Below are positions 1 to 51,331 of a stretch of 64,000 nt of DNA, piece after piece (within the stretch, counting starts at the first letter, position 1; each line of letters begins with the position of its first letter). Location: assembly GCA_029959085.1 (NCBI GenBank), contig JARWIR010000002.1, positions 76,970,224 to 77,034,223 on the forward strand, given 5' to 3'. The DNA comes from Nemophila menziesii (Eukaryota; Streptophyta; Magnoliopsida; Boraginales; Hydrophyllaceae). Position numbers and translations under genes: made by a program. Under the pieces are notes generated by a model. The model was not told the origin of the DNA and did not search any database. It saw only the letters and a list, made by a program, of their open reading frames with translations.

Positions 1-1
1 A

Positions 2-1658: not shown

Positions 1659-1999
1659 TTGTCAGTTTTTTATCAAAATCTTTATGTTGCTGTCCATTTT
1701 GCCTTAAGACTTTATTTTATGTACTAGGGTTTATCTACTACAGTGTAGTTTGTTTGATTATATATTATCTATATAATGTTTTAAGGAAAACTCTATTTTG
1801 TTTAATTGATAACAACTCTAAGATGACATGGCCAATCTCAATAGACATTACCAACCCCATTAGTAATATATGTGGTGTGTGTGGGTAAATGTACGTCTTA
1901 TATACAGTAGTTGAAAAAAAAGTAGATATCAAAATGACTGCTTTAACAAGGGACAATTCTACCTATAGAATGCTTATCACATCTTATATCAAAGTACCT

Positions 2000-4900
2000 G
2001 CCCAACCTAACAAGTTATAGTTTGGGTTCTATGGACATATACCCAGTGTATACATAAGGGTTAATTTTCATTAATTATCTAAAACTCTAAATCAAAACAT
2101 TAGAATAAGGTTTATAAACATATCCGCATAATGTTTGGTAGTATAAAAATACCCCTATAGGGATATGATTGTTGTTATGTATATCTTATTATAGTGCACA
2201 AAAGAGACTTCAACTATTAAATGGATTGTCCTTTCCTTTAACAGTCACTCCTAATGCCCATTAAACAATATATTTGGCCATATGTAAAACAAAAGTACCT
2301 TCTTCTTTATTTAATATGGGGTAGACTTGTTTTGCCGATATGGTGTAGACTCAAATGCGTCGTTCATGATTTCGGGCGTATACACATTGTGTGGTGGGCA
2401 TATGTCCATCCATATTAACCTACCTACCCTTCTAACAATCTTGATAAACATATTGTAATACGGGTGAGGATTTGACATTATTGTTTAATGGACAATTATA
2501 CCTAGAGTATGCTTATCACATTATATATCAAAAAAACTACCCAACCTAACAAGTTCTAATTCGGTTTCCATGGACGTATACCCAGTGCATACTTAAGGGC
2601 GAATGTTCATTAATCCTTTAAAAATATGATTCAAAACATTTCAATAGTGTTTATCAACATATTGGCATAATGTGTGATAGTATAAAAATACCCCTATAGG
2701 GATATGGTTGTTCTTAGGTATATCTTATTATAGTGCACAAAATAGACTTTACCTTTTAAATGGATTGTCCTTTCCTTTAACAGTCAGTCCTAATGCACAT
2801 TATACAATATATTGTGCCATATGTAAAACAAAACAACCTCCTTCTTTATTTAATATGTGGTAGAATGATTTTTTCGATATGGTGTAGGCTAAATTGCGTC
2901 GTTATTGATGTTGGGCGTATACACATTGTGTGATGGGCATATGTACATCTAGGTTAACCTACCTACACTTCTCCCAATCTGGATAAACATATTGTAATAC
3001 GGGCGAGTATTTGACGTTATTTTTAATGGACAATTATACCTAGAGTATGCTTATCACATTCCATACCAAAAAAACTACCAAAAAAACTACCCAACCTACC
3101 AAGATCTAAGTTGTTTTCCATGGACATATACCCAGTGCATACGTAACGGCGAATGTTCATTAATCATTTAAAAAACTAAATCAAAACATTACAATAGTGT
3201 TTATAAACATATTGGCATGATGTTTGGTAGTATAAAAATAGATTAATGATATTTGTCACCCTTTTTGTATCACCCTTTTATCACCTCCTACGTGTATGCC
3301 TACATGTACCAATATATTGATTTCTCTATCCTATTTAATTTTTTTCTATCTTCTATTCAAGGAAATCAGAACATATATATAGAAGGGTGATAAAAGGGTG
3401 ACATAAAAAGGGGTGACATATATCATTACTCATAAAAATACCCCTATAGGGATATGGTTGTTGTTATGTATATCTTATTATTGTGGGCAAAAGAGACATT
3501 TCATTTTAAATGGATTGTCCTTTCCTTTACCAGACACTCCTAACGCCATCATACAATATATTTGGCCATATGTAAAACACAATTACCTCCTTCTTTATTT
3601 GATATGGGGTAGACTGATTTTGCTGATATGGTGTAGGCTCGATTGTGACGGTTTTGAATTTGGTTGTATACACATTCTGTGATGGGCATAGTTCCATCCA
3701 TATTAACCAACCTAAATTTCTCCCAGACTTGATAACAATATTGTAATACGGATGAGTATTTGACATAATTGTTTAATGTACAATTACACATAGATTATGC
3801 TTATCACATTCTATGTCGAAATAACTACCCAACCTAACAAGTTCTAATTGGGTATCGATGGACATATACCCAGTGCATACCTACTGGGATATGGTTGTTG
3901 TTATATATATCTTATTGTAGTGCACAAACATATTGGATTGTTATTGATTTTGGGTATGAACCCAGTGTGCAAGGTTTTACTTTGTGTATATACATTTAAC
4001 GTAGATCAAAACATTTGATATGTTAACACAATTGTGGGGCATCCGAAAAGCTTACAACACCTTAATGGACATATGTCAAAATATACAGACGGTATCGTAT
4101 ACCCATACGGAATATGCTTGGACTTATGTCCGAACATGGAAAATGGATGTCTTATACGTGCTGTTATTGTATATATGTCCGTTAATTACTTTCTCGACCC
4201 AATAAAGTTGGTCTATTACGAGTTCCATGCATCATCCGTATATGGTTGTATGTCAACCAGCATCGACATATATCGTAAACATTAAGCATACATTAAATAT
4301 GGTAGGGTAAATGTACATCGTCGGCATTGTGTACTTGTAGGTTACTGTATGAAACGGTTAACAATGATTATCTAATTGATATTATATTTGGTGAAGGTTG
4401 GCACGCTTACAATTGAAAGTTGTAACACTTTATAGCTTTTTTTTCTAACATTGAACAGTTTGATTGGGCATATGTACATTAGCCCCGTTCTACCTGAAAT
4501 TCGTTTGTGTATACCCATTGTGCGATGGGCATACGTCCATCCAGATTAACCTACCTAACCTTCTCCCAATATTGATAATCATATTGTAATACGGATGAGT
4601 ATTTGACGTTATTGTTTAATGGACAATCATACCTAGATTATGCTTATCACGTTCTATATAAAAATAACTACCCAACCTAACAAGTTCTAATTTGTTTTCC
4701 ATTGACATATACCCAGTGCATACTTAAGGGCGAATGTTCAGTAATCCTTTAAAAACCTAAATCAAAACATTACAATAGTGCTTATAAACATATTGGCATA
4801 ATGGTAGTCTACAAATACCCCTATAGGGATATGGTTGTTGTTATCTATATCTTATTATAGTGCACAACATAGAATTTACCTTTTAAATGGATTGTCCTTT

Positions 4901-7860
4901 CCGTTAACAGTCAGTTCTAATGCCCATTATACAATATATTTGGCCATATGTAAAACAAAACAACCTTCTTCTTTATTTAACATGGGGTAGACTGATTTTG
5001 CCGATATGGTGTAGGCAAAATTGCGTCGTTCTTGATTTTGGGCGTATACACATTGTGTGACGGGCATATGTCCATCTACGTTAACCTACCTAAACTTCTT
5101 CCAATCTTGCTAAACATATTGTAATACGGGTGAGTATTTGACATTATTTTTAATGGACAATTATACCTAGAGTATGCTTATCACATTATATATCAAAAAA
5201 ACTACCCAACCTAACAAGATCTAAGTTGTTTTCCATGGACATATACCCAGTGCATACGTAACGGCGAATGTTCACTAATCATTTAAAAATCTAAATCAAA
5301 ACATTAAAATAGTGTTTATAAACATATTGGCATAATGTTTGATAGTGTAAAAGTACCCCTATAGGGATATGGTTGTTGCTATGTATATCTTATTATCGTG
5401 GACAAACGAGACATTTCATTTCAAATGGATTGTCCTTTCCTTTACCAGACACTCCTAATGCCCATCATACAATATATTTGGCCATATGTAAAACACAATT
5501 ACCTTCTTCTTTATTTGATAAGGGGTTCACTGCTTTTGCTGATTTGGTGTAGGCTCGATTGTGACGTTTTTGAATTTGGGTGTATACACATTCTGTGATG
5601 TGCATAGGTCCATCCATATTAACCAACCTAAATTTCTCCCAAACTTGATAACAAAATTGTAATACGGATGAGTATTTAACATAATTGTTTAATGTACAAT
5701 TACACATAGATTATGCGTATCACATTCTATGTCCGAACATGGAAAATGGATGCCTTATACGTGCTGTTATTGTATATATGTCCATTAATCACTTTCTCGA
5801 CCCAATAAAGTTGGTCTATTACGAGTTCCATGCATCAGCCGTATATGGTTGTATGTCAACCAGCATCGACGTATATCGTAAACATTAAGCATACATTAAA
5901 TATGGTTGGGTAGATGTACATCGTCGGCATTGTGTACTTGTAGGTTACTGTATGAAACGTTTAACAATGATTATCTAATTGATAGTATATTTAGTGAAGG
6001 TTGGCACACTTACAATTGAAAGTTGTAACACTGTATAGCTTTTTTTTTTCTAACATTGAACAGTTTGATTGGGCATATGTACATTAGCCCATTCTACCTG
6101 AAAATCGATTGTGTATACCCATTGTGTGATGGGCATACGTCCATCCAGATTAACCTACCTACCCTTCTCCCAAACTTGATAATCATATTGTAATACGGAT
6201 GAGTATTTGACGTTATTGTTTAATGGACAATTATACCTAGATTATGCTTATCACGTTCTATATCAAAATAACTACCCAACCTAACAAGTTCTAATTTGTT
6301 TTCCATTGACATATACCCATTGCATACTTAAGGGCGAATGTTCATTAATCCTTTAAAAATCTAAATCAAAACATTACAATAGTGTTTATAAACATATTGG
6401 CATAATGGTAGTCTAAAAATACCCCTATAGGGATATGGTTGTTGTTATCTATATCTTATTATAGTGCACATCATAGCCTTTACCTTTTAAATGGATTGTC
6501 CTTTCCGTTAACAATCAGTCCTAATGCCCATTATACAATATATTTGGCCATATGTAAAACAAAACAACCTTCTTCTTTATTTAACATGGGGTAGACTGAT
6601 TTTGCCGATATGGTGTAGGCTAAATTGTGTCGTTCTTGATTTTGGGCGTATACACATTGTGTGATGGGCATATGTCCATCTTGGTTAACCTACCTAAACT
6701 TCTCCTAATCTTGCTAGACATTTTGTAATACGGGTGAGTATTTGACATTATTTTTAATGGACAATTATACCTAGAGTATGCTTATCACATTATATATCAA
6801 AAAAACTACCCAACCTAACAAGATCTAAGTTGTTTTCCATGGACATATACCCAGTGCATACGTAACGGCGAATGTTCACTAATCATTTAAAAATCTAAAT
6901 CGAAACATTAAAATAGTGTTTATAAACATATTGGCATAATGTTTGATAGTGTAAAAATACCCCTATAGGGATATGGTTGTTGCTATGTATAGCTTATTAT
7001 CGTGGGCAAAAGAGACATTTCATTTTAAATGGATTGTAATTTCCTTTACCAGACACTCCTAATGCCCATCATACAATATATTTGGCCATATGTAAAACAC
7101 AGTTACCTTCTTCTTTATTTCATATGGGGTACACTGCTTTTGCTAATTTGGTGTAGGCTAGATAGCGACGTTCTTGCATTGGGGTGTATACACATTCTGT
7201 GATGTGCATATGTCCATCCATATTAACCAAACTTGAAAACCATAGTGTAATACGGATGAGTATTTGACACAATTGATTAATGTACACTTACACATAGATT
7301 ATGCTTATCACATTCTATGTCGAAATAACTACCCAAACTAACAAGTTCTAATTGGGTTTTGTTGGACATATACCCATTACATACGTAGGGGCGAAGTATC
7401 ATTAATTATACAAATAACCCGACTGGGCTATGGTTGTTGTTATATATATCTTGTTGTAGTGCACAAACATATTGGATTATTATTGATTTTGGGTATGAAC
7501 CCAGTGTGCAAGGTTTTACTTTGTGTATATACATTAAACGTATATCAAAACACTGGACACGTTAACACAAATGTTTGGCATCCGAAAAGCTTACAAGACA
7601 TTAAATGTTATATATCCCGCAGATATATTGGTGTTAATGGACATATGTCAGAAGATACTGGCGGTATCGTATACCCATACGTAATATGCTTGGACGTATG
7701 CCCATTCATGGAAAATGTATGTCTTATACGTGGTATTAGTGTATATGTGTCCATTAGTTAATTTCTCGACCCAATAAAGTTGGTCTATTACGAGTTCCAT
7801 GCATCATCCGTATATGGTTATATGTCAACCAGCATCGACGTATGTCATAAACATTAAGCA
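2000..7860. repeat. Array of diverged ~540-bp and ~1.6-kb direct repeats
   Basis: Non-coding DNA built of direct repeats. A landmark CCCTATAGGG, followed by ATATGGTTGTTG, recurs at 2153, 2692, 3442, 4818, 5357, 6423 and 6961. The short spacing is about 539 bp; the 2692 to 3442 interval is longer because a MITE is inserted there. A higher-order unit of about 1600 bp is visible as 4289-5888 against 5889-7490, and 3800-4290 matches 7320-7860. Each unit carries one or more copies of the TGGRCRTATRYCCA motif. Small open frames in here are short, AT-rich and not conserved between units, so I do not call genes. Confidence 0.8.
3241..3431. mobile_element. MULE-type MITE, 191 bp, with 9-bp target duplication
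   Basis: The ends are inverted repeats: GATTAATGATATTTGTCACC at the left and the complement of GAGTAATGATATATGTCACC at the right. The same 9 bases, ATAAAAATA, flank it at 3232-3240 and 3432-3440. Paralogous repeat units without the element have a single ATAAAAATA at this place (for example just before 2692), giving an empty-site comparison. A 9-bp duplication fits the Mutator superfamily. There is no coding capacity. Confidence 0.85.
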
Positions 7861-8649
7861 TACCGTGACTGATTTTTCAAATACTCCGATGTATTACATA
7901 ACGTGTATCCCGTTTATGAGAAATTAATTTAGGTTGGTTAATATGGATGGACATATGCCCACCACAATGACTGATTTGTTTATATATTGGATTCATTAAT
8001 ATATCCTTCTTATTTAGTGGGTAAATATAAGGTATCATCTTCGTATAATCGGTGTTGATTATATTGAATGGGGAGAGAAATTATCGAATGTTTACGGATA
8101 TATGTCCAGCCATAATGAATGCATCTAAGGGTTAAGGGTTAGCAAAAATGTCCAACGTCTGAACTATGTACTTGTATTTGACTATATGAAATGTTTAGCA
8201 TCCCCTATCAAAATGATATTCTAGCTAGTACAGATTTGGACACTTACATTTGAAAGGTGGAAGAATATATATCATTTATTTGAAAATGTCCAATTAGATT
8301 TGCATAATGAAACCAATTAGTCAAATCCGGGATAACATATAAAATCCAGTTAGATTTGCTAGAATAATACCTAGTACATATACTATTCAAATCAATAAAA
8401 GTTGACCAAATTTATTGAGAGTGTCAGATTTTGGCCAATATTTATTTTTTTATTCAAATATTAAAATTAAAAAATGAAAATTTGTCCTACTGAACCCACG
8501 TGCCGTTTCTGATTTTTGGTGTGTCATCAGAACAAGATGGTCTGCGATTAGACTTATCATGAAGGCTTGCAAAATTGCAAAAGGGCGGCAAAAGAGGAGT
8601 AGCACGTTTACCCATGTATGCAATTACACCTTGTACCTATAGTACACGA
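7861..8649. other. Non-coding region upstream of gene C
   Basis: AT-rich. It contains two more TGGRCRTATRYCCA-like sites (near 7950 and 8098) and then motif-free DNA that probably holds the promoter of gene C. No gene, RNA or clear repeat end was seen. Confidence 0.5.
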
Positions 8650-9150
8650 AAGAAAAACAAATTTCCCATTTATTTTTCTTAAGCTTCAACCTAACAGGCA
8701 ACAAGACATATAAGCTAAAGGGGAAATCCCAATCAAACTCCGGAAGACACCAACAACACCGCCAAACATAGGTAAGAATCTCGTTAACTTCAATAGATAT
8801 ATAAAAGATGTCTATTAGAACAAGTAAAACCCTAGCTGATAAAACTGTACCAATCGATGTTCATTATTTGTCCATTAAAAATCTAGTTGTTTAACATAGC
8901 GTGATACAATATCATAAGGTGTTGTGTATGTATGTATACTCGTTTGTGGATATTATAGCAAATCATTCGTTTGACAAATATAGTTAGTTTATGTAGTTAA
9001 TCAGTTAGTAATATTAGTTGAAAATATAATTGTGCTTCACGGTTTAATATAGTTAATCAGTTAGTTGCTTTAAACCGAATAAGGTTTTTGCTACATGATC
9101 AAAATTTGTTTCTTAACAACATGTTTTAATACAGATACTAGGCCAGGACA

Positions 9151-10227
9151 ATGTCTGAGTACAGGTGCACACTCCAAACAGTTTTCACTACTCTTTCAGA
9201 CAAAAACCTTACAACAGATGATATAGATGCACTAAACAAATCGCCGTTTTACGGATTGTTACTTGGGCTTTATAACCATGAAGGGGAAAAGGGGTTCTCT
9301 AAGTCAGATTCATTGATTAACGATATTATATCGACCTACGATGAGACGACCCAGTGTTTTATACTAGGTGGTAAGAAGAAAAGAATTACAGCAACAGATA
9401 TGAAGTTGATAATGGGGGTTGAAGGTGGTACAGCTAGGGTTCCAAATTATACACAATCACAAATGAAGGCATCGCCTTGGTTTAAGAAAAACTTTCCTGG
9501 AGTAACTACTGGCACCTTGTCTCAAAAGGCTGTTAAAGACAAAATAAAGGAAGTTTTGCAGAACAGGAAGCCTGGGGGAAGGCGGACACTATTCAAATGC
9601 ATCAACATGTTGACTATGTCAACAATTTTCTACCCCGCGTCTTCAGGCAGGATTACACAGTGGCATGTAAAGGTATCTTTAGTTGATGATACTGTTTTGT
9701 ATTGTATATGATAGTGTAATAGACAAGGTGATGTAGACGGGGAATTTTCAATTTCAAAGCCTCTTTTCGATGCAAACAGTGTAGTGGTTATCCCGAACCT
9801 AGCCATGGTAGATGCATACACCTTTTGGAGCTTGATAGTTTACACAAAATCACATGACACTTTTGAGCACTACACTTCTATCAACAGAAGTAGTCACATC
9901 CGTCTAGCCATTGAATCACGATACCATGCAGAGCGGATTGTTCAAGTACTGTGCGAGAAGTTGTGGCCGGAATTCACTGAATACGGGCAGAAGAGACTTT
10001 TTCCGAAGAAGATTAAGCGTAACGAACAACCTAATGAGTGGGAAGATTCGGGTATATACGTTCTACAATTGATGTTTGATATAGTTCGTCGTAAGCCGAT
10101 AAATACGGCATACAAGAAACGTGAAATTAGGGGAATGCGTCAGTATATTATTAACCTTCTACTTAATGACGAGAATACTGATGACGTGGTTTCTCAGGCA
10201 AGGAAGCATCTGCAATTAGTGATTTAA
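9151..10227 (+). CDS. Gene C: DUF1985-like N-terminus plus inactive Ulp1-like C-terminus
   Basis: A 5' leader exon ends at about 8771 and an intron (8772-9134, GTAAG..ACAG) precedes the ATG at 9151. Residues 1 to about 110 have the layout of DUF1985/plant-mobile-type N-terminal domains (compact KSPFYGLLLGL block, then FILGGKKKRITATDMKLIMGVEGG). The C-terminal part, 9784-10227, has Ulp1-like blocks with F in place of the catalytic His (YTFWSLIVY) and S in place of the Cys (EWEDSGIYVLQLM). The two halves are in the same frame, separated only by tandem stops TGA-TAG at 9709-9714. The region 9673-9714 looks like a very short intron (GTATCT..GATAG, 42 bp), at the position equivalent to the IKWQ intron of genes A and B, but the small second exon found in A and B is missing. 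It may be a broken gene. DUF1985 assignment is from pattern only. Confidence 0.6.
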
Positions 10228-13200
10228 AGTATCAGGATGTGAATTCTATCTTGTTTTTTATTGGCTATGTATTATTCTGTTTTGTAAGCGGATATTGAAT
10301 GCTTTTATATGTTTCTGGAAATGGATAAACATGCATTGTGCTTATTATTGATTGTTTTCCATTTGATGGTTATTAATTGTGCACACAGACATTTAAATAG
10401 GTATGGCATGATAGGGAGGAAATAGTTGAGTACGTGATTATTAGTGTATACCATTATAAACAATATATTGGAACATTACATGTAATAAACCTAACTACTA
10501 TATTAACACAAACAATAGATGTACATATACCCGTAATTCAATAATAATTGTGTTAATGTACATATACCCAATCAAACTTAAAGATGTTAGAATCAAGCAA
10601 ATTCTATAAGTTGTAACATCTTTCAAATGTAAGGGTGCCAATCTTTAAAGCAAGTATATGTTAGATTATATCAACATTAAGTGTAACGCATTATTTAAGC
10701 AAGTATATGTTATACTATATGAATATGGATCAACCCCTATAATGAATGAATAACATACTAAACACACCTAATACATGACAGAATATTTTAGTGTGCGTAT
10801 GCCCAAACGAACTGAAAGACGTTGGAATAAAAAAAGTATATAAAATGCTACACCTTTTAATTGTAAGGGTGGCAATCATTACTAACTAGCCTATTCTTTT
10901 GCTTAACCTTGCTAAACATTTCATACAATCAACTACAAGTAGACAATGCCAGCGATGGACATTTACCCAACCCATATTAATGTTTGAATAAGGTATACAA
11001 TTTATGAAGTTGCAAGTGTACATATACACATACATGTCTAATGCATTAAACCCGTAAAAGAACTTTATTGTTGAAAAAAAAAATATTTGTATATTTGTAT
11101 ACCCCTTGAGTATATTTGTATTTGGACTATGATGGTGTTGATGGATATATGTCTAAGTATCGGAATCTGTACAATGCACATATACCCAGATAGACCGGAT
11201 GAATTAATATCAACAAACACAAGTGTCATTCATAAGTGATGTTATTTGTTGACAGATGCCCATTGAATTTGATATTGAATGAATGTTTAATATAAAAACA
11301 TCTATCCTTCATTTGTGCATATAATATTGTAGGTCCCCCATACTATAGGATGGGCATATACTATAAAATGCAATCAAGTAGGTCCCGAACCATTTTATCG
11401 GTGGATATATGCCCATTGAGATACAATGATTGTTTTATAAAAAACCATCACCCATGTATGTCTGCACGCCATATAGATAGACTGTTAGTCATAATGTCAG
11501 CATTTATGGGTATATGTCCAACCACACTATCACATACAGTATATAAATGTAAGAATTGCCATTCTATATCGGTATATATCCGTTAGCATGTTGTTCTGCT
11601 AGAAGTATTATTTGCGTTGGTCAATCCAGATAATACCATCCCCTTATCTTACCCCCTCTTATATTTCTTACATGTTGTATCATGGGTGTTTAGTTTATAA
11701 GGAGTGAATTAACACATATGGAACAACACAACTAATTGTTTAAAGACATCCGTAATAACTATGCTATGATTCCCACACAGATTGATAAAAACTGCAAAAA
11801 CATATGTTCGAGAGGGAGATGATGATGATGGATATATACCCAGATGAACCAAATGAATGTATAACAATGAATCAATGTGTAATAATACACATCTATTCTA
11901 AAATTGTGCATAGGATATTACATATATTCATGGACATATACCCGTATGGGCGTAATGCACAAAAATCATAATACAATTATGTAGGTCACAAACCATGTTA
12001 TTGGTGGACATATGCCCATTGACATTGAACGATTATGATTCTACATGTTTGTCATAAATTCTACATGTATGCGTATATGCCCGTCCACACTATCATATAT
12101 AGTATATAATAGTAGACATGCCTTTATGTATCGGGATATAGCCGTTCGCATATTTGTCTGCTATAAGTAGTTTATATGTAAGATGATTGTATGTAATATC
12201 AATAGTGGTTAGTTTCTAAGAAGTGGATTAATGCTTGTGATTGACATATATGGTAAAACACAACTACTTGAATAAACACATCTAAAGTAACTAAGATATG
12301 CTTCCCCCACAAATTGACAAGAATTTCAAAGACATAGATCCGAGCAGGATATGATGATGATGTACATATACACATGAAAATGATTGGATGATTATTAGGA
12401 TCGACCGAATGCATGAATATGAAAATACACAAGTGTCGGTCACAAATGTTGTTATTCGTGGACATTTAATGAATGTTTAATAAGAGAACATCTATCCTTA
12501 ATGTATACGTATAATTGTATAGTGCAATTATATTATAGGATGGGTATATACCAAGATGTGCGTAACGCATGATTATTATAATAAAATCATGTATGCCACA
12601 ACCCATGTTATTGGTGGACATATGCCCATTGACATTAAATGACTATTTATTAAAAAAACATTAAGCCTATATGTGTTGTGAATAAATTTTATTTATAAAA
12701 TCATGTTGTATGTGTATATGCCCATCCACACTATCATATATAGTATTTAATATTGGGCATGCCTTTTTTATCGGTGTATATCAGTTCGCATTTTTGTCTG
12801 CTAGAAGTAGTTCATATGTAAGACAATTGTATTTAATAGCATGAGTGGTTAGTGTCTAAGGAGTTGATTAATATAGGTTCTGTGTAATCAATACATATAT
12901 GGTAAAACAAAGCTACTTGTATGAATACATCCGTAGTAACTAAGATAGGCTCCCCCCATAAATGGATAAAAAATTAAAAAGCATAGAATAGTGTAGGAGA
13001 TGATGATGATGTGCATATACCCGTGAAGTTGTTGTTGAAGCAAAACTAAGTGCAAAATACGATGAAAATGATTGGATGATTAGTAGGTCCCATATACTAT
13101 AGGATGGGCATATACCCAGATGGGCATATACTATAAAATGCAATCAAGTAGGTCCCGAACCATGTTATTGGTCGATATATGCCCTTAGTCACTTTCTAAG

Positions 13201-16934: not shown

Positions 16935-17265
16935 ATCTTTATTAGCCTATACACATGAACACAAAAAAGATTTTATACCATATACATATATGAACATAAT
17001 AACAATCCAGCTATACGAAATAAAGTAAAATCATAACAGACTATAAGAACTTTCATATCAAACAATACACAAGTAAACCATATGCATAAACCAAACCTAT
17101 ATTGATATTATGTATACTTGTATGCAAACAAAATAATAAACTATTTGCATACATTGAAAAATATTAGCAAAAGCACAAACGTGATATAGATAATTACCTT
17201 TTGATAGAAGCTTAATTTACTGTTGCAACATACAAAGTTATCTCCCCTATAGTGTAGTTGCTGTT

Positions 17266-17274
17266 TTAGGGTTT
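17266..17274 (-). promoter_or_regulatory. Telo-box (AAACCCTAA) in the gene B leader/promoter
   Basis: On the minus strand AAACCCTAA lies about 70 bases upstream of the leader intron donor of gene B. The same box is at 20684-20692 and about 24103-24111 in the two tandem copies. Telo-boxes are common near transcription starts of plant genes and are bound by TRB/Myb-type proteins. Use here is inferred from position. Confidence 0.4.
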
Positions 17275-22457: not shown

Positions 22458-23771
22458 TTAAATCATCATGTATATGTTCACATCATGGACAATTGGTTTT
22501 TTAGCTATAAAAGTTGGAGCAGACAATTTACGACTTACATTACGGGAAAAAGTACGCGGCTTGCGTGGGATCCAGTTCTTTCGCTCCCTACGTTGCGCTA
22601 GAATAATCGACAATGGGACGTTATCGTTATCGAACAACCGAGATTCTATAATTCGTTGACACTCCATAATCTCCGCTGAAGTTTGTGAAACGTCTACCTG
22701 ATCCTTGTTGATCGCATTTGATGAGAGTTTGATATCAAATCCTGATGTATCATATCCAACACCTATTCGCAATTGGTTACTGTTGCTCAAGTCAGATGCC
22801 TCTGAAACACCACGAAGATTAACATCCTTCTGTATAGTAGATAACAATTCACTAAAAACCGCCACTTTCGTTGAAGGTCGATGCACACGACCATCCCCGT
22901 CAATAGTTTGATTATCGTTTAAATCGAACGAAACCTTTTTCCTCTTCTTCAAGCAATTAACTGCCGTCTTCTCTGGCGGTGTGATAACTCCTAAGTCGAA
23001 ATTTGGTGACGTCAACGAATGACGAAAAGCTGGCCGTTGAGTACCACCATCTTCATCTTCAAACTCATTACCAAAGCAACGGAACAACGCCTTGGGTGTT
23101 ATGCAACCAACCTCGACAAATGAACCTTTCTTATTGACCGCGATATCTTCAGTATGTTCATCAACTGGACCATCGAATCCAATAATACCTTGAGGCTGGA
23201 TTAACAAGTCTGGAACAGTATCACATACAGTTTCACCAACACCCTTTACTGCAGCTAAGTCTTTTGCCAATGATGTGGCTACTAATGTTTGTGAATAGTC
23301 CTTAGCAAAACCAATCTCATACACATCATCAGCATTCCGAATATTCGTGTATCCCGATGGTTTCCGACTAATGAAAGACTGAAGAATGTCATCTTGTTGT
23401 CTGCATTTTCTGCCAAGTACATCATTTTTTATTTTCTCTTGTTCCAGCTCGAGTAGTAATATATTTCTCTCTTTACTTTCATGACTGAATTCCTTTTTCA
23501 GGCTATTTATTTCGGTCCTTATAGTATCTCTTATGATCTGCAGGTTAACTTGACTTATGAGATTTTCAGATGTAAGAGAACATTGGGTTTGGCATGAAGA
23601 ATATTCTTTTTCTTGACTAGTAGCTATTTGACCCGGCTGGACAAAGTATTCCTGACCCTCTAAGCTAGGCAGCTCCAAATCAGCAGGCAAAGTATTCACC
23701 ATATTAGATTCAAGAGGGAAATCATCCCCAAATAATGGTGTTGTATCAAGTGACAACTCATTTTCTTCCAT
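22458..23771 (-). CDS. Gene B copy 3: C-terminally truncated (437 aa)
   Basis: Same structure and same new C-terminal tail as copy 2, 3419 bases further on, differing by few residues (for example Ile for Asn in the LQNIRDTI stretch). Leader intron at about 23784-24034. As in copy 2, the Ulp1-like exons are absent. Both extra copies keep open frames, which shows either that duplication is recent or that the truncated product is tolerated. Confidence 0.7.
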   Translation of the reverse strand: MEENELSLDTTPLFGDDFPLESNMVNTLPADLELPSLEGQEYFVQPGQIATSQEKEYSSCQTQCSLTSENLISQVNLQIIRDTIRTEINSLKKEFSHESKERNILLLELEQEKIKNDVLGRKCRQQDDILQSFISRKPSGYTNIRNADDVYEIGFAKDYSQTLVATSLAKDLAAVKGVGETVCDTVPDLLIQPQGIIGFDGPVDEHTEDIAVNKKGSFVEVGCITPKALFRCFGNEFEDEDGGTQRPAFRHSLTSPNFDLGVITPPEKTAVNCLKKRKKVSFDLNDNQTIDGDGRVHRPSTKVAVFSELLSTIQKDVNLRGVSEASDLSNSNQLRIGVGYDTSGFDIKLSSNAINKDQVDVSQTSAEIMECQRIIESRLFDNDNVPLSIILAQRRERKNWIPRKPRTFSRNVSRKLSAPTFIAKKPIVHDVNIYMMI

Positions 23772-26700
23772 ATCTTTATTAGCCTATACACATGAACACA
23801 AAAAAGAATTTAAACCATATACATATATGAACATAATAACAATCCAGCTATACGAAATAAAGTAAAATCATAACAGACTATAAGAACTTTCATATCAAAC
23901 AATACACAAGTAAACCATATGCATAAACCAAACCTATATTGATATTATGTATACTTGTATGCAAACAAAATAATAAACTATTTGCATACATTGAAAAATA
24001 TTAGCAAAAGCACAAACGTGATATAGATAATTACCTTTTGATAGAAGCTTAATTTACTGTTGCAACATACAAAGTTATCTCCCCTATAGTGTAGTTGCTG
24101 TTTTAGGGTTTTGTTGTTTTAACACATAACATTCATTGGATGATATAAAATTTATTTTCAAATCCGTATTACTTTTCACACATGCCATAGAGATGTATTA
24201 CACGTTGGCCACAGTAAGGTACTCAAGTGTTTGTCAGTAATTAGAGAGAGAGTGTGGTATTCATGATTTGATATGTAGGAGTTTAAGTACATCACATGTT
24301 CAGTAACTTTTCTCTTTGTTATATGTCTGCAAATTAATAATTTTATATTATGGGTTAATGTATCAATGCTTATCATGTAAGCTAATGTATTACCAATACT
24401 ACACGACTAATATAAGTGCATCCCTATGTTGCGTTTAAAAAAATAAATCTCCCTTTCAGGGTGCAAAATTTGTCAACACAATAGATGAACACATATTGTA
24501 TATATAATTTTCATATTTTTTTTTGTACAAGTGACTTATACTCAAATGTTTTGTGTACAATTATGAAATTAGTGTGACTATGAATATTTACATAAGGTCT
24601 CACAATATATGATGTTGATGTACATATGTCCTATGAAAGAACAAAAGTCTCTAAACACACACATGTATTTCACATGGTAGTGTGTATAATAATCCATACG
24701 CGTAATATGACTAGTAGTGGTGTTGACGTACATAAGCCCAAGTAATGGTGTTGCCACGGGCAACTAATTTTATTGGGGGAACCTCTTAATAAGGAGGCGT
24801 ATGACCAATTACATTAAATGATTGAATAAAAAAAATACAGCTAACATAATATAATTTATATAATACTCCTAATTGTTTTAATCGTACAGAAAATCTGAGG
24901 TCGGTTATGGACTGTTCGTGTTCGTGTAATACGTGTAATAAAAAGTACGATGCTTTTGGCCATATGCCCAGTCTTAATGAAGGAAGGAATAAGAAAACAT
25001 TGTTGGACACATGCACATAGCATGCGCCCCGTACGACTGTGTATAACCATCAAGTAGTTTTATTTTTGGACTATGTACAATGCACATATACCCAGATGTA
25101 CCGAATGACTTAGTGTCTTTCACAAATGACGTTATTCGTTGACATATGCCCATTGAATTTGACATTGAATGAATGTTTTATATAAAAACATCTATCCTTC
25201 AAGTGGGCATATAATATTATAGGTCCCATAGACTATAGGATGGACATATACCCAGATGGGCGTACGTCTGCACGGCATATAGATATACTGTTAGTCATAA
25301 AAGTCAACGTTAATCGGTATATGTTCAAATATCATAATACAATCATGTATGTCACAAACCATGTTATTGGTGGACGTATGCCCATTGACCTTGAACGGAA
25401 ATCTAATAAAAAACCATCACTCCTATATGTGTGCACAACATACCGAATAAATGTTAGTCACAAATTATACAAGTATGCATATATGCCCGCCCACGCTGTC
25501 ATATATAGTATATAATATTAGACATGCATTTCTGTATCGGTATATATTCGTTCGCACAGTTGTCGGCTAGAAGTAGGTTATATGTAAGATGATTGTATGT
25601 AATATCATTCGTGGATTAATGCTTGTGATTGACATATATGTTGAAACACAACTAAATGAATAAACACATCTGTAGAAACTAAGTTATGCTTCCCACATAT
25701 AGTGACAAATTATTCAAAAAAATAGATTCGAGCAGGCTATGATTATGATGTACATATACCCATGAAAATGATTGGATGATTTTTAGGATGGACATATGCC
25801 CATTTACATTGTATGAGCACTTTATAAAACAAAAAATTCTATATGTGTGCACAACACATCGAATACTTGTTATTCATTAAATCATCATGTATGTGTATAT
25901 GTCCAACCACACTATCACATATAGTATATAATTTTAGACATGCCTTTTGTATCGGTATATATCCGTTCGCATGTTTTTCTGCTAGAAGTAGTTCATATGT
26001 AAGAAAATTGTATGTAATAGCATTAGTGGTTAGTGTCTAAGGAGTGAATTAACCACCGGTTTCGTGTAATCAATACTTGCGATTAACATATATGGTGAAA
26101 CACAACTACTTGCATAAACACATCCGTATTACCTAAGATAGGATCCCCCCATCAATGGATAAAAAGTTAAAAAGCGTAGAATCAAGTTGGACATAATGAT
26201 GATGGACACATACCCGTTAAGGTGTTGTTGGAGCTAAAATATGTGTAAAGTACTACAAAAATGCTTGGATGATTATTAGGATGTACATATACCCAGATGT
26301 ACCGTATGATGGTATAGCACAATACTAAAAAACCGGTCACATATACGCATGTCGACCGAATGCATGAATATCAAAATTCACAAGTCTCGGTCACAAATGA
26401 TGTTATTCGTGGACATTGAGTGAATGTTAAATAAAAAAACACATATTTTTCATGTATGCATAGTATATTACAGGTCACTAGTATTATACGATGGACATAT
26501 ACACAAATATGCGTAATACATGCATATTACAAGACAATCATGCAGGGCATACTCCATGTTACTGGTGGACGTATGCCCAATGAAATTGAATGATTATTGA
26601 ATGAATGACTAATAAAAAAACACCTATACTTCAGGTATGCATAGTATATTATAGGTCACTTATATTATAGGATGTCCATATACACAAATATGCTTAATGC

Positions 26701-27038
26701 ATGCATATTAAAAAACAATCATGTAGGTCCTACTACATGTGGCTGGTGTACATATGCCTAATGAAATTGAATGATTAATTAGTAAAATACATCACTCCGA
26801 TATGTGTTCACAACTTACGGAATTAATTTTAGACATAAATTCAGCATGTATGTTTATATTCCCAGCCACACTATCATATATAGTATATAATATTAGACAT
26901 GCCTTTCTGTATTGGTATATAGACGTTCGCATGTTTGTCTGTTTGAAGTAGTTTATATGTAAGAGGACTGTCTGTAATTTTTGGTAAGCAACTAGTGGGG
27001 CCTAGGGTGTGATGAAATTATATATACAATAAGTGCAG

Positions 27039-27167
27039 AAACACCCTAGATCATTCGGGTCCATAGCTCAGTGGTAGAGCAATTGACTGCAGATCAATAG
27101 GTCACCAGTTCGAACCTGGTTGGGCCCTAAATTGTATGATCAAAAAAAAAAAAAACACCCTAGATCA
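27039..27167 (+). mobile_element. Retroposed tRNA-Cys insertion with target duplication and poly-A tail
   Basis: A 15-bp direct repeat, AAACACCCTAGATCA, lies at 27039-27053 and 27153-27167. Between them are TTC, a complete tRNA, a 13-base trailer AAATTGTATGATC and a run of A. The paralogous segment near 28660-28690 has no insertion (GCAGAAACACCATATATCTACAC). Target duplication, 3' poly-A and an A-rich target start are hallmarks of LINE-driven retroposition. Confidence 0.85.
27057..27128 (+). tRNA. tRNA-Cys (anticodon GCA), 72 nt
   Basis: Complete cloverleaf. The acceptor stem GGGTCCA pairs with TGGGCCC (one G-U), D stem GCTC/GAGC, anticodon stem ATTGA/TCAAT with loop CTGCAGA, T stem ACCAG/CTGGT with loop TTCGAAC. 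A-box (TAGCTCAGTGGTAGAG) and B-box (AGTTCGAACCT) are present, and no intron. It sits inside a retroposed insertion. No T-run terminator follows immediately, and the nearest TTTT is about 70 bases downstream, so normal expression is uncertain. Confidence 0.9.
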
Positions 27168-29369
27168 ACGATGTTCTGCAAGTATACAAATCGTATACAA
27201 GTTTTAGATAAAGATTCGTTCCGCATATATCCCAGAGGTTATAGGGATCTTATGCACATACCTAGTGCAACTGATTAAAGGTAGAACAACATGGCACCTA
27301 GTTTTTTGAACAAAGTGTTGGACGGACGTATGCCCATTGAAGTGTATTTGCGCCCATACGAAAATGATGGCAATTGAAAACGTATTAACACATGCCTTAT
27401 TCTTGTTGTCTAACAGTTGTTGATGTATATATGCCCAACTACATACATTATAGTACAGCCGATAAATTTATTTATATTTACTAAGCAAGCCAGCTCACCA
27501 TACGTTATTGTATTTCAAAAACATAGATTCGAGCAGGCTATGATGATGATGTACATATACCCATGAAAATGATTGGATGATTACTAGGATGGACATATGC
27601 CCATTTTTATTGAATGATTATTTTATAAAAAAAACATAAATCCTATACGTGTGAACAACACACCGAGTACTTGCTATTCATAAAATCATCATGTATGTGT
27701 ATATTTCCATCCACGCTATCATATACAGTGTATAAAATTAGACATGCCTTTTTTATTGGTATATATTCGTTCGCATGTTTGTCTGCTATAAGTAGTTCAT
27801 ATGTAAGACATTTGTATGTAATAGCATGAGTGGTTAGTGTCTAAGGAGTGCATTAATATAGGTTCCGTGTAATCAATATTTGCGATCAACATATATTGTA
27901 AAACATAACTACTTGTATAAACAAATCTGTAGTACCTAAGATAGTATCCCCCCATAAATGGATAAAACTTTAAAACACATATAATCAAGTAGGAGATGAT
28001 GATGATGGACACATCCCCGTTAAGATGTTGTAGAAGCAAAAATATGTGCAAATTCATATGAAAATGATTGGATGATTATTAGAATGTACATATACCCAGA
28101 TGGACCGAATGCGTATAGAAAAAAACTGGAAAATCGGTCACATATACACATGTGCACCGAATGCATGAATATCAAAATTCACATGTCTCGGTCACAAATG
28201 ATGGTATTCGTGGACATTGAATGAATGTTTAATAAGAAAAAACCTATAATTCATCTATGCAAAGTATATTACATGTCACTTGTAGTAGAGGGTGGACATA
28301 TACACAAATATGCGTAATGCATGCATATTAAAAGACAATCATGTAGGTCCTACTACATGTGGCTGGTGGACATATGCCCAACGTAATTGACTGATTAATT
28401 AGGAAAAATGCATCACTCTTATATGTGTGCACGACTTACAGAATTAATGTCAGACATACATTTTTCATGTATGTTTATATTCCCAGCCACACTATCATAT
28501 ATAGTATATAATATTAGACATGCCTTCCTGTATTGGTATATAGCCGTTCGCATGTTGGTCTGCTAGAAGTAGTTTATACGTAAGCCTAGTGTCTGTAATT
28601 TTTGTTACGCAACTGGTGGGTCCTAGTGTGCGATAAAATCAGATATACAATCAATGCAGAAACACCATATATCTACACGGTTCCGCAAGAATACAGATCG
28701 TATGCAAGTTTTAGATTAATCTTCGTTCTGCAGAGACTTCAGAGGTTAGAGGAATCTTATTCAAATACCTAGTGCAAATGATTAACGGTAGAACAACATG
28801 GCACCTAGTTTTTTGTACAGGCGATGAATCCATTTATATTTACTAACGTACGTATACCCAATTCGCTGAAAACAACCTCTAGAACAGTCACCATACGTTT
28901 TGGCATTTCAAAAACCAAAAAAACGTCATAGACTAAACAAAATCGCATTCCCAAAAGACATGTACCTCAATTATGAAAACCAGGCATTGGTAAACAAATA
29001 TATATGTGACATTTTATAGTTGTAAATAGACTCAGATGTACATATGCCAATTTACACAGAACCGGCGAATGCCGAATTTTATTGTCAGATCTAACCCGAT
29101 ACTAGCAATCTTATGAGAACATGAATAATAGTGTAGTTTCACACTTTTACATCTTTTGCAATACTACGTAATTGAAAACATGAATGTGCATGGTACCAAA
29201 CGTGAAACGTCCAACTATGAATTAAGCGAATCCATGTGTCAACCGACGTATACCCAAGTAACCAAATAAATATCTATGTAATTGATAAATTGAATGGTCA
29301 TAGGACCAAACAATATAAAGCTGTACGCATACCGTGTGACATATAAACATACAAAGTCATAACAATTTT

Positions 29370-30790
29370 ATACCCACCTACTAAAAAATATATACGTGGC
29401 CATACGGGCGGTTTTATATAACGAGCAGAACACGTCTCTAGCAACAATAGCCACCTTATTCTGGTATGCAAAACGATATAACACATGATACAAAACAATA
29501 TTTTTATATGATTTCCAACGACGTGGGCTTTCTCAAACCCTACATAGAGTATACCGTATATTCCTTGGATATTTTTTACTGTAAACGTGAGTGGGTATCG
29601 TTCTAACCAATATACAACTATAATTAGAATGTGTGACATATAAACATAAAAGATAGCCTGTATATTGAAATAAACTTTTGATGGTTCTTTTTAAAAAGTT
29701 TTTGACGGGCGTATGTCCATTTACGTGCAATTGCGTATATACGGGCACGAGGCCAATTGAAACATGATACATAATTGACCTTGTTATGCTGTTGAATAGA
29801 TGTTGATGTACATGTGCCCAATAAAAAAGTTGGTATTTCATATGTCAGACCTTTTAGACAATTGACCTGATGGGCGTATACCCAATGGACGTATACCCAT
29901 TTAGGTAAACTATTTTTCGTCCACCGTATAGGACGGACATGTGTACAAGTACGTGTAGTTACATAAAAAAAACTTGTTACCAAATTAAAAAGGGTACAAA
30001 CATGCAATTTCTTTGATTTTAAACAGATGTTGATGTACACGTGCCCAATTACACATATTCGAAAACATCCGAATTTGATTTATGTATCCTTAGCACGCCA
30101 GATCATTACCTTGATATGCCAATGGACGTATACCCAACTACTAAAAAATATATATGTGGCCATACACACCGTTTTATAGAACGATCAAAACACATCTATA
30201 GCAAGAATAGCCACCTCATTCTGGAATGCAAATCGATATAACCCATGATACAAAACATTTTTTTGATATGATTTCCAAGGACGTGGCCTTTCTCACACCC
30301 TACATATAGTATACGTATATTACTAGAATATTTTTTCCTGTTATATGCACCATCCTAGAAAATGGTGATCCAAATATCTGCGTAATTGAAAACGTGAGTG
30401 GATATAGTTCTAAACAATATACAACTATAAATAGAGTGTGTGTCATATAAACATAAAAGATAGACTATATATTGGAATAAACTTCACACGTGTTATCCGG
30501 GTTTTTTTAAAAAGTTTTCGATGGGCGTATATACGTTGAAAAAGGATACACACTTGACATTGTTATGCTGTTAAATAGATGTTGTTGAACATGTGCCCAA
30601 TGAAAAAGCTGGTATTTCATATGGCAGACCTTGTATACAATTGACCTGATGGACATATACCAATAGACGTATACCCACTTAGATAAACTGTTTTTTGAAA
30701 TACTGTGGAATGTTATCTCTATCAACAATAGTAATAGTAAACTATTTTTTGTACGCAAATCAGTATAACACATTAGACAAAACAATAGTG
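29370..30790. repeat. Direct duplication with ~765-bp offset
   Basis: 29374-29553 matches 30139-30312 (landmark CTACTAAAAAATATATA, then AATAGCCACCT and GATTTCCAA), and flanking stretches near 29700-29900 match 30500-30690. Two tight motif pairs occur here: 29871-29884 with 29886-29899, and another near 30650-30680. Non-coding. Confidence 0.65.
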
Positions 30791-31054
30791 GATTGACATA
30801 TAACATTTTACATAAACATGATTTTTTGTTTGCGAGGGATATTGGATGATGGGCATATACACGGAAACATAGAATGTAATACGCACGAAATAGAATTTAA
30901 ACATCCGTATCAATCGTACCGCATCAAATGATATGTCGATTTACATATACGGGATTACATAAGTTGACTGATACTTTCATACACGGTAGTAAGATAACAA
31001 AAAAACTATCCAGTAATCCAAAATACACACACATGTTACTAAGTAAACGCAAAC

Positions 31055-33290
31055 TCACAAATTTGCGGTGCATGTTTTCTTGTTGTGGAAGCCCATCAAG
31101 TGACATCGTCCGCATCGTATCTTAGGCCGAAGGAGTTCAAGTTGAGATAACTTACGTTTACTTTGTGGCCTGCCACGAGGTATTTTGCATATAGGTGGCA
31201 ATATATAAGTATCTTCTGTTGGCTTCGTTTGAATACAAAAAGTCGTGAGCGCCGGTATTTTACTTGCATATATTTCTCTAACTCTAGCAACATGGAAAAA
31301 CGTTTCAACATAGTCGTATTTCGTGTCCGGCTTAGCATAGGACAAAGCTCGTACGGCATGTTCACAAGGAAAACCATCTATTTTCCACTTTCCACGTGAA
31401 CATCTCCTACTATCTATATCAACTATCATAGTTGGATCGCACCTAACTTCAAAAACATTAGGGGATGAACGAGATACCTCCCACGTGCGGGACATCTGGT
31501 ATTTCTCGTTATACTCTATCTGTCTCCTAGGAACTAAGACAGATGTCCACGTATCACATAACACAGATTTGTCATATATATTTTTCATCATCATAAGCCT
31601 GATTTTGTCTATAAACTGAGCAACAGGGAGTTCCCGTAATTTTAAAATCTGGTTATTAAATGATTCAGCCGCGTTTGATGTCAACTCCCCATAACGGCTT
31701 CCGGGAAAGTGAACATTTGTGAAGTTCTTAAAGGGTAGTGTATCTAGGAAACTAAAAGCATTTTCACAACCAAGCCTCAAAAACTCCCCAAGGTGGAAGT
31801 CAAACAATTCGACATTAGGAGCTTTAGTCAAATACTCAAATGACAGTAGTGCAGCCCTTCGGTCGTTACCGGTCAACTTTGAAATCAAATTGCCCTTAAT
31901 GTGACGGAAACAAAAAGAATGATAGGCTTCCGGGAAAATATTCCTCACCCCATTTAAAAGACCAGGGTGTCGGTCAGATATGAAGACCAGCTGCCGGCCA
32001 GTTACAAGAGGGCGTAAAAATTTCATGAATGCAGCCCAGTTTTCGTTATCTTCGCCTCGGACGATAGCAAATGCAACCGGCACAAGGGCTGCGGGATAAT
32101 ATATTGAACTACTTAATTAGTAATAAATGAAAAAATAGCGAGTTTGATGGTTTGTTTTACTAACCGTTGTTCCCATCCTTCGCTACAGCTGTTAGAAGTG
32201 TGCCTTTGTATTTGTTCTTCAAAAATGTCCCGTCCATAAAAAGCATTGGGCGGCAGGAACGAAAAGCATCTAGGGACGCACCAAACGCAAAATGTGCACG
32301 TTCAAACGTACCATGTATGGGACCAGTCTCTAGTAGAACGGAACCTGTAGGATCTGCTAACTTTAGTTTCTGAAAATATTCCTCAATTCCTTGATACGAT
32401 CTTCCTGGGTCTCCGCTTATATCAATTTTAGCACTGTTCAAAGCATCATAAGCTCTCTTGTACTCTATTGTGAATCCATAGCTCTCACGTATTCTGTGAA
32501 TAATCTCTTTCGGCTTCATGTCTAGACGTGATCGGGCATCATCTATTATTAAATCTTTAACTAACCCGAGAGTCATGCTACTGTTTACCATTTTACGCTC
32601 CGGGGTCATGCAACTATGAACGTTGTAGAAGGTCTTTATATACAAAAGACCGTCTTTAGAAGAAATGGAAGCAAAAATCCACCATCTGCAACCGGTCGAT
32701 TTACGGTACAAGCAACATGCACCGTATTTCGAATGATTGTTGTGGGTTGGTTTTGTACGGAAACCAGTTTCACACTGGTACTTGCATATAGAATTTCTTA
32801 ATTCTGGGAACCCACCCGTGATGCATTTACCAACATCCCCTAGATAATCAGGCCAGTCCCGACTAAGCAATATCTTTTCCCGATGAACAAAGAAAGCAGG
32901 TTCCGAGTCAAGGGCATCTGTTAAGTGTCCCTCATCTGTAGAATTTATACGATCTGAACCTGTTTGGTGACGCACAAACCCCTTTATTTCACCACTTACC
33001 AATATATCTACCTGAGTAGCTTCGTCACGCTTTATAATCCATACTAAACCTGAATAATCTACCTGTGAATCAATTTTGCAATTCAAATGTTCCCCAATAG
33101 AATAATGGTAAACAATCGATGATTCGTCCAAATGTTTCCATTTATTAGAAACGTATAATACTAATGATGCGAATGAATCAAACAAACTAGTTGGAGCCAT
33201 ATACTTGTCTTGTGCATATTTGAAAATGAAAACACAGTTATCCATATTAACTCTGCATGTAAAGGACAAAAACATGGAACTGAGATTCAT
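31055..33290 (-). CDS. mudrA: MULE (MuDR-type) transposase, 2 exons, up to 719 aa
   Basis: Exons 33290-32165 and 32088-31055, joined by a 76-bp intron (GTTAGT..CCGCAG); the joined frame is intact. Residues about 160-230 are the MuDR-type N-terminal zinc/DNA-binding domain (C..C..HSC pattern). The MULE DDE domain has D353 (FMDGTFLKNKY), D414 (FISDRHPG), the C-x2-H signature C435/H438 (SFCFRHIKGN) and a candidate Glu at 517 (NAAESFNNQ). A SWIM zinc finger follows (605-619), but its second Cys is Arg (RRCSRGKW). A CCHC-like knuckle (CGRCHLMGFHNKKTC) ends the protein. A more likely start is Met16 (33245), because an acceptor-like TACATGCAG precedes it. It could still be active for transposition; the SWIM change is the only visible defect. 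Confidence 0.9.
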
Positions 33291-34792
33291 ATAAACAAGT
33301 TATGTACATATTTATTGAGAAAAACAAACTACTTTAACGGACTATGTGTATATGCCCATTCATCGGACATGACCTACTGTGACAGCTATAGTGTTTGTGT
33401 ATATACACATACATGTCGTTTCAAATAACATTGATACAAAATCTGTGTATATGCCCACTCATCAATCTTATTATGACTTTAACATACTATGTGTATATGC
33501 CCACTAATAAATCATGCCCTACTGTGACAGATTTCAGTAGTTTGTGATCAAATATGACTTTTCACAAATCGTATTCTAGGTTACTATTATATATTATGAT
33601 CAATTATTTAAAAAACATGTTAAACACGCTAAAAAGTTTTATTACAATCAAACAAATAAAACATTGATCATGAGCCACAATTAAACCATCGTTCTGAATT
33701 TACACTAATTAAACCAAATCAAACATACCTATATCATAGATGATGTTTATGGCCTTATGGATAACCTGTCACTTAAACCAATATGTGATCTGTAATGGGT
33801 ATATGTAACAAAGAGAGGGAATGAAATGAATTCAAATTTGATTTCAGAATAATTGTTTAATATTATACTGTTTATTCACGAATTAGATTTGCAGCCACTT
33901 TTGAATGAGAGAGAAATGTGTATACGTTGTTGTAATAGGCATTAATGAGGATGGACATGATGGGACTCTAATTTCTGTTACAAACCATGCACGTCTAAGG
34001 TGTCAGATACGTGATGATGCAATACAACTATTATTTTATTATATTAGAAGTATAAAGTTGCTGGAGGCCTTTAAAAGTATTATTATCTAACCAGGATTTA
34101 AAACATAAGTTTTAGTTATAGTTGGGCTTTTAAACGTAGTTTTCTCATACGGTTTTCCCATTTTTCATAAATGAAAGAAATTTAAATACAAAAATATCCA
34201 ATAACTTTTGTTTAAATTTCTAGTAACTTCGTTTTCAACCAGTAATAATAGATATTACTTAAACCATATCATCTTTTTATCGCTTTTTATATGAATTAAT
34301 AAAAAAGATAGAGTATATTAAATAAATTAAAAAATTATATGATTAGTTCATTTAAAATTTACTAGGAAGATGAAAATATGATATTATTTAAAATAGAAAA
34401 ATTCTTCCATCCAATATTGGTTGATCTTATGCTAATAATATTAATACACATAACTCATGTTTTAAACTTACAAAAGTAACTAACTTATTAATCTAATGAC
34501 ATGTGTTTTGTTATAATTATTAATTGTTGAATATTGGACCATCCAATATTGAATGAAGTGTTACCTATTTTTTTAACAAATTTATTGGATGAATCTTCAC
34601 CTTCACGCTCCCAAAATCAAAGATTAGCCCATTTGGTTTTGTTTATAATCCCGTTCCGAGAATGGGCCGAAAATACAATCCAATCCAATCTAACCCGACC
34701 CAATCCACTTCTCATCATCATCAACATCAAGAGCGAGAGTGTCTGCAAACTATTGGTTCAATAGAAGAAGAAGAAGAAGAAGAAGAAGAAGA
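33291..34792. other. Boundary between transposon domain and host genes
   Basis: 33291-33810 holds the last motif copies (33345, 33447, 33489 and a weak one near 33797), in the region upstream of the transposase. I could not find terminal inverted repeats marking the element end. From about 34100 the DNA is AT-rich and unremarkable. An (AAG)n microsatellite at about 34764-34791 sits directly in front of the next gene's ATG. Confidence 0.5.
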
Positions 34793-51322: not shown

Positions 51323-51331
51323 TAAATTTAA

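Follow-up and report, generated by a model that had tools for sequence, protein, structure and literature searches.

A near-palindromic 14-bp motif in the non-coding DNA of a Nemophila menziesii Mutator-like transposon, probably the operator of a VANDAL/VANC-type anti-silencing system

Why should one short, near-palindromic sequence be scattered many times over through the non-coding DNA of a plant transposon, and what might read it? The question is raised by a stretch of 64,000 nucleotides from Nemophila menziesii (assembly GCA_029959085.1, contig JARWIR010000002.1, positions 76,970,224 to 77,034,223 of the forward strand; hereafter the window, with positions counted from its first letter), a large part of which belongs to one Mutator-like element (MULE) carrying the 14-bp motif TGGRCRTATRYCCA. 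Since the sites, the gene set and the spread by repeats match the anatomy of VANDAL transposons and their VANC proteins as described from Arabidopsis, the most likely role of the motif is as operator of a VANC-type protein encoded by the element. We put at roughly 0.7 the probability that it belongs to an anti-silencing system of VANDAL/VANC type, sequence-specific and encoded by the transposon.

With both strands merged, the window holds 34 exact copies of the motif, and 86, 128 and 190 copies when up to one, two and three mismatches are allowed. The non-coding DNA of the element (24,786 bp) accounts for 34, 86, 127 and 183 of these, its exons (9,360 bp, their limits estimated from open frames and similarity) for 0, 0, 1 and 2, and the flank beyond the element (29,854 bp of the window) for 0, 0, 0 and 5; first-order Markov sequences modelled on positions 1-34146 gave means, over 60 sequences, of 0.00, 0.28, 3.12 and 25.08. 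A further 30 kb of genome upstream (L008-L010) contains no site with up to one mismatch. The original prediction had described a motif with many copies, missing from the exons and from the adjoining ordinary DNA and spread through all non-coding DNA of the transposon. Its first claim is borne out by the excess over chance, and the absence from adjoining DNA by the 29.9 kb of flank, free of sites at up to two mismatches. Absence from exons holds at up to one mismatch but not for a single site with two mismatches, at window position 114. The spread through non-coding DNA, true of 127 of the 128 sites with up to two mismatches, does not extend to the ends of the element, as the first exact site lies 4.0 kb from its left end and the last site (up to two mismatches) 0.6 kb from its right end. 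Sites are sparse, with a median spacing of 120 bp. Their mean self-complementarity of 0.69-0.77 is partly built into the pattern, and near-symmetry is also seen in motifs found without any preset pattern. Neighbouring sites in the window show no preferred orientation (33 of 51, against 31.5 after permutation); within arrays of two related copies, A2 and G, orientation is strong (35 of 38 and 20 of 25), which tandem copying can account for.

Over the 1.517-Gb genome, exact matches number 1689 forward and 1649 reverse, a site that fits both strands entering twice; the backward-read pattern gives 44 and 18. The 100 matches listed all lie within 11.5 Mb of the start of contig C1, clustered as islands; the islands that were fetched contain sequence related to the same transposon families, and one lone listed place, C1:3829701, stands outside that set. 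The searches for relatives scored the best 115 of 4297, 150 of 1211 and 150 of 755 candidates. Measured by transposase identity to the window copy, the related elements range from A2 (93%) and B (83%) through D1 and D3 (~64-67%) to E (54%) and F (49%); D2 has VANC-type exons only (58-66%) and was assigned to D by those exons.

Is the motif conserved, or has it only been copied? A functionless by-product of tandem and segmental duplication would also give many copies, and the region is rich in repeats: the 86 sites with up to one mismatch fall into 23 groups of related flanks, 14 of them singletons and the largest with 29 members. With such sites located in one sequence, we scored changes in the repeats or copies aligned to it, correcting for base, trimming alignment ends and excluding alignments above 95% or below 70% identity (97% and 65% in parts of the purine/pyrimidine and flank analyses); the D motif was used for the D family. 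Repeats share history, and the 1000 random draws behind each comparison are not independent events. Relative to the local rate of change, the window's own repeats, which cover 65 of the 86 sites, give 0.53 for the motif as a whole and 0.46 for its fixed positions, as against 1.02 +/- 0.08 for random 14-mers, none of 1000 being as low. The ratio is 0.65 for the window against A2, 0.45, 0.64 and 0.66 for A2, D1 and D3 each against itself, 0.69 for copy G against itself, 0.49 for G against A2 and 0.53 for A2 against G (0 of 1000 draws in each case), and 0.72 for D2 against D3 (13 of 1000). Changes at the four purine/pyrimidine positions mostly stay within the code (112 of 135 in the window's own repeats, and 41 of 58, 34 of 51 and 151 of 161 elsewhere), the background share of transitions being 0.33-0.39 (0.37 for the window's own repeats).

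The selection beyond duplication that had been proposed for the motif is thus supported, and the core proved better conserved than its surroundings, which is not what duplication alone would give. Three rate comparisons without a significant difference, detailed below, speak for passive copying. However, where many sites could be compared, the core has between about a half and three quarters of the local rate of change, its 15-base flanks changing at 0.84-1.34 of background, substitutions at the variable positions mostly keep the purine/pyrimidine code, and exons are nearly free of the motif although part of one gene has been triplicated. A functionless by-product is therefore an extremely improbable account, one that we reject on the core-versus-flank tests, though duplication does multiply sites: it made many of the copies, yet it does not explain their conservation.

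Motif discovery on other copies of the element, which had been suggested as a check, was informative. An expectation-maximisation search without preset pattern returned RATGGACATATRCCCA in A, TGGGYATATRTMCAT in B and TTGGGYATACRCCCATY in D, which are related motifs, and a different set of GTMCRGAC-like words in E and F; a 30-kb control gave low-complexity words only. The A and D patterns, at up to one mismatch, are absent from the 34 kb of E and F, and GTMCAGAC occurs 29 and 14 times in these two families (L028+L029 and L030+L031, one element each), the nine remaining sets having 0-3 copies each. The motif is thus slightly shifted at ~65% transposase identity and replaced in the two elements at ~50%. 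Genome-wide, the E-type word shows less specificity, with 98 forward and 82 reverse matches against 27 and 20 for its control. By eye, and with no statistics attached, the word TGTMC is common to the B half-site, the E/F word TGTMCAGAC and the VANC6 motif AGTTGTMC, and appears in A as TGTCC.

These shifts bear on the idea that the element has recruited a host transcription factor, of the TCP/site II kind or another, with the sites acting as enhancers of its genes. The half-site does resemble TGGGC words, and short sites in non-coding DNA are what such enhancers would look like. The link to the site II element TGGGCY that had been suggested did not survive closer inspection, however, as the motif has a purine and not a pyrimidine at that position, and neither TGGGCC (0.06 per kb in the element, 0.30 in the flank) nor TGGGCT (0.29 and 0.33) is enriched; the enriched hexamers are TGGGCA (1.61 and 0.13) and TGGACA (1.96 and 0.37). 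A TCP/site II factor was rejected on these counts. A host factor would in addition leave unexplained both the replacement of the motif at ~50% transposase identity and its absence, at up to one mismatch, from 60 kb of flanking DNA. We consider it very unlikely; an anti-silencing protein encoded by the transposon, together with its operator, offers the better parallel.

Two copies without intact genes are instructive. Copy G (L024+L025, C1:11403090-11413779) is 10,690 bp long, has a perfect 9-bp duplication, TTATTTTAA, and consists mostly of motif-carrying repeats between element ends, with 37 sites at up to one mismatch that occupy positions 2239-9969 and leave both ends free; the 20 kb fetched around it contain 17 non-overlapping copies of AGTCGACT. 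The smaller one (L026 3546-6564) is 3,019 bp long, with a perfect duplication, ATCTAGAAA, and six sites. In both, the left ends (GGGTAAATTA) and the right ends (AAACTAC read inward / GTAGTTTTCTC) are like those of the window element. A search with 25 exon queries found no gene in the 3,019-bp copy, and in copy G a coding remnant of 37 residues from the start of the transposase, beside the right end. That gene-less copies keep their sites points to a protein acting in trans.

Such a protein could in principle be the MULE transposase itself, or a TnpA-like helper, bound to the sites in the service of transposition, for example in the synapsis of ends. The element encodes a transposase, the motif varies with the transposase family, and sites kept in copies without intact genes are as expected of a transposase target. 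But the sites are neither terminal nor subterminal, in copy G as in the window element, and this internal placement disfavours subterminal transposase sites; some 100 sites over 30 kb would also seem to exceed what a transposase needs. We regard a role in transposition as unlikely.

The element that carries the sites is a single insertion of 36,159 bp, from window position -2012 (C110:76968211) to 34146. Both its ends are fixed by a 9-bp target-site duplication, ATACGGTTT, at -2021..-2013 and 34147-34155, and by matching ends elsewhere; the left copy of the duplication is unique within the 10 kb before the window and immediately precedes GGGTAAATTAATTA. The transposon context of the original prediction therefore holds, and its limits (2032..33805) give way to wider ones, the left of which lies outside the window. 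When the right end was aligned locally to -15000..+500, nothing at the left end matched it as terminal inverted repeats would, and by eye the two ends resemble each other weakly. A transposase bearing a SWIM domain, a 9-bp duplication and absent or degenerate terminal inverted repeats suggest a place among the VANDAL-type MULEs, which are described as having 9-bp duplications and terminal repeats that are short, degenerate or lacking (PMC6446971, PMC10398659).

The transposase scores (window 31058-32116) are 42.5 bits for PF10551 (cut-off 27.6), 36.2 for PF00872 (21) and 21.2 for PF04434 (19.6). Its first exon has three matches in the protein database at E 0.001, the best from Raphanus sativus (29% identity over 46% of the query, E 6.5e-12), and a transposase scan of viral contigs gave no match. 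The three other genes, which we call VANC-type, are mutually paralogous, each with a long variable part and an Ulp1-like last exon; a DUF1985-like first exon is present in the left and the second of them and was looked for in the third without being found. By eye, the left gene, the second gene and the transposase keep their order and orientation in at least 10 other genomic places. The second gene in the window is without the middle exon that copy B has (L032 533-1891), the gap being 9678-9715. Given this loss and the frame changes in the left gene, less sure in its middle exon, the window copy is unlikely to be fully functional.

What might the VANC-type proteins do? A profile of 11 last exons (from the window, L018 and L028-L032) matches SENP8 with E 1.5e-4. 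The catalytic positions, placed by alignment to what we take to be the SENP8 triad, are replaced in all 11, His by F, L, V, M or C, Asp by S, T, C, K or W, and Cys invariably by S; this invariant Ser, together with the lost His and Asp, suggests a conserved, non-enzymatic role for the domain. The exons that pass the Peptidase_C48 (PF02902) cut-off of 20.7 bits are those of families E and F, with 21.2 and 29.4. Predicted structures of the Ulp1-like exon (three window sequences; predicted local distance difference test, pLDDT, 44.3) and of the DUF1985-like exon (a single sequence; pLDDT 43.1) were too poor for a fold search. No VANC came up when solved structures were searched with the profiles, exon 1 giving chance matches only; a crystal structure of VANC21 is mentioned as unpublished in PMC8756742. 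A protein search with residues 1-215 of the spliced family-E protein returned nothing at E 1. Elsewhere in the genome, 21 other loci match PF09331 (DUF1985), for example C200:32185052, and 8 of the 21 exceed the Pfam cut-off.

In the mechanism that we propose, a protein of the element, most likely one of the paralogous VANC-type proteins, would bind the near-palindromic 14-bp site, and the near-symmetry of the site suggests that it would do so as a dimer. The candidate reader would have a DUF1985-like N-terminal domain (in two of the three proteins), a fast-evolving middle and an Ulp1-like C-terminal domain without a catalytic triad. Amplification of repeats would scatter sites through the non-coding DNA, so that the bound protein may cover the element, removing or blocking DNA methylation there and, in trans, on related copies; the genes of the element would thereby stay expressible and gene-less relatives would also be shielded from silencing. 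Alternatively, the host and not the element's protein may read the sites, as a target for silencing or for a demethylase. RNA-directed DNA methylation is indeed reported to act on the corresponding non-coding regions of Arabidopsis VANDALs, where it opposes the VANCs (PMC10398659). Conservation of the motif would be odd, however, for a site that serves silencing alone, as would its variation with the element family, and we judge reading by the host to be highly improbable.

A more specific version of a VANC-type reader is an intriguing, though doubtful, possibility. In a clade of MULEs, a SUMO-protease fold, once captured, might have lost its catalysis and become a dimeric, sequence-specific reader of DNA whose 14-bp operator has two-fold symmetry, reader and operator having co-diverged across families within one genome; TGTMC would then be the ancestral unit, doubled into a palindrome by A, B and D. 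Were this so, the triad-less domain might hold SUMO, or a silencing factor linked to SUMO, rather than cleave, and the gene-less copies would be pure operator arrays riding on the system.

Several observations weigh against a VANC-type operator. The site itself, at 14 bp, near-symmetric and sparse, is unlike the Arabidopsis VANC motifs, which are 8-9 bp long, dense and in one orientation, and a 10.5-bp signal of helical phasing is not clear among the sites. The Pfam scan of the window's own exons gave no match to DUF1985 or Peptidase_C48; PF09331 was reached by one of seven exon-1 sequences from the window and related elements, at E 0.0039 and under the cut-off, and PF02902 was passed by just two of the 11 last exons. 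DUF287 had no match in the Pfam scans of element exons, which a weak relative could escape. The three rate comparisons without a significant difference are A2 against the window (0.74, 100 of 1000), D1 against D3 (1.40 from five sites, 902 of 1000) and D3 against D1 (0.74 from four sites, 258 of 1000), and in the comparison of the window with B, with 28 motif columns only, neither of two changes at purine/pyrimidine positions stayed within the code. Finally, the E and F words are not as strictly confined to non-coding DNA (6 of 30 and 6 of 18 in exons). By eye, 18 of the 100 listed among the 180 places with the E-type word adjoin a listed relative, and, for a 17-base form of the A motif, 15 of the 32 places (two of these inside the window) have a listed coding relative no more than 26 kb away.

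The features of the element are collected in Table 1. The three 3.42-kb units in it are a recent internal expansion, as judged from their sequence. In the host flank, an inverted pair of ~460 bp, 88% identical, at window 49356-51332 is perhaps a small inverted-repeat element.

Table 1. Features of the element, in window coordinates.
Feature	Position	Strand	Remarks
MULE element, window part	1..34146		Two related copies both lose similarity at 34146, the right end, which a 9-bp duplication follows
Left VANC-type gene, first exon, DUF1985-like	about -1222..-582 (L011, outside window)	+	Frame changes near -780
Left VANC-type gene, middle exon	1..914	+	Two consecutive open frames, 2-457 and 376-924
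Left VANC-type gene, last exon, Ulp1-like without catalytic triad	1119..1658	+	Best 150 of 755 genome matches scored
Motif-bearing direct repeats	1948..8108		Units ~82-94% alike; motif counts and repeat comparison
Second VANC-type gene, first exon, DUF1985-like	9142..9678	+	Exon similarity
Second VANC-type gene, last exon, Ulp1-like	9715..10227	+	Exon similarity
Motif-bearing intergenic repeats	10520..14342		Motif counts and repeat comparison
Third VANC-type gene, last exon, Ulp1-like	14654..15184	-	Exon similarity
Third VANC-type gene, long variable exon	15411..16946	-	Open frame
Three 3.42-kb tandem units	15637..25896		99.2-99.6% alike; each has much of the third gene's variable exon and a motif-bearing stretch
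Motif-bearing repeats	26082..30863		Include tandem 181-bp and 15-bp units containing the motif; motif counts and repeat comparison
MULE transposase, second exon	31055..32100	-	MULE, Transposase_mut and SWIM domains
MULE transposase, first exon	32160..33299	-	Domain scan and similarity
Last motif copies (up to two mismatches)	33345..33503		0.6 kb from right end
Right copy of 9-bp target-site duplication, ATACGGTTT	34147..34155		Recurs at left end

How does this arrangement compare with systems already described? The closest likeness is to VANDAL21 (Hiun) with VANC21 and VANDAL6 with VANC6 (Hosaka 2017, PMC5735166), in which a transposase is accompanied by divergent extra genes. For VANC21, binding to YAGTATTAY in VANDAL21 non-coding DNA is reported both in vivo and in vitro, and VANC6 is linked to AGTTGTCC/AGTTGTAC, a motif-dense region being bound in vitro; each protein is described as causing loss of DNA methylation in elements with its own motif, and the motifs as having spread by the formation of repeats (PMC5735166). 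As in the Arabidopsis VANDALs of that account, a short motif here occupies introns, spacers and terminal non-coding DNA, mainly outside exons, grows by repeat formation and varies between related families (PMC5735166). DUF1985, found in Arabidopsis VANC proteins, may have its counterpart in the DUF1985-like exons, a weak match, and DUF287, held by the VANCs compared in the same source, was not found here (PMC5735166). The Nemophila element differs from the Arabidopsis VANDALs in its 36 kb and its three paralogous VANC-type genes. The eudicot-wide survey of VANCs published by Sasaki in EMBO J in 2022 is said to report that DUF1985, DUF287 and Ulp1 have been gained and lost, that target motifs diversify fast and that non-autonomous copies are targets; helical periodicity of the motifs is reportedly important, and the element studied here has no clear periodicity.

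Ulp1-like domains have parallels of their own. Some VANC genes of VANDALs are described as carrying Ulp1 (KIU) and recognising motifs in their own kind, with the role of Ulp1 given as unknown (PMC13317346), and in Kaonashi MULEs, as here, an Ulp1-like domain is found in MULE-borne genes that run opposite to the transposase (PMC6117577, PMC2528002, PMC13317346). KI-MULEs are described with intact C48 domains (PMC6117577), whereas the triad is replaced in every exon examined here. There is also a likeness to En/Spm, which belongs to a different superfamily. The sites in the Nemophila element are internal and avoid the ends. In En/Spm the TnpA sites are subterminal. What is shared with TnpA is an element-encoded protein, a short repeated motif and a link to methylation loss, TnpA-linked demethylation being mentioned in PMC10398659. 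A literature search with the motif strings returned one unrelated paper only.

The element thus looks like another example of self-marking by a transposon, with conserved, putative binding sites in its non-coding DNA, here in a plant genome of 1.5 Gb, far larger than that of Arabidopsis. Related families in one genome, with sites that differ stepwise, make co-change of reader and site directly testable, and the symmetric site and triad-less Ulp1-like domain are concrete features for testing the mode of binding; a known pair of reader and operator could serve to lift silencing at chosen loci. The kind of system is already known. What looks different, relative to Arabidopsis VANCs and the descriptions in reviews, is the 14-bp near-symmetric site, its sparse placement with no clear helical phasing, the loss of the triad, the three VANC-type paralogues and the 36-kb size.

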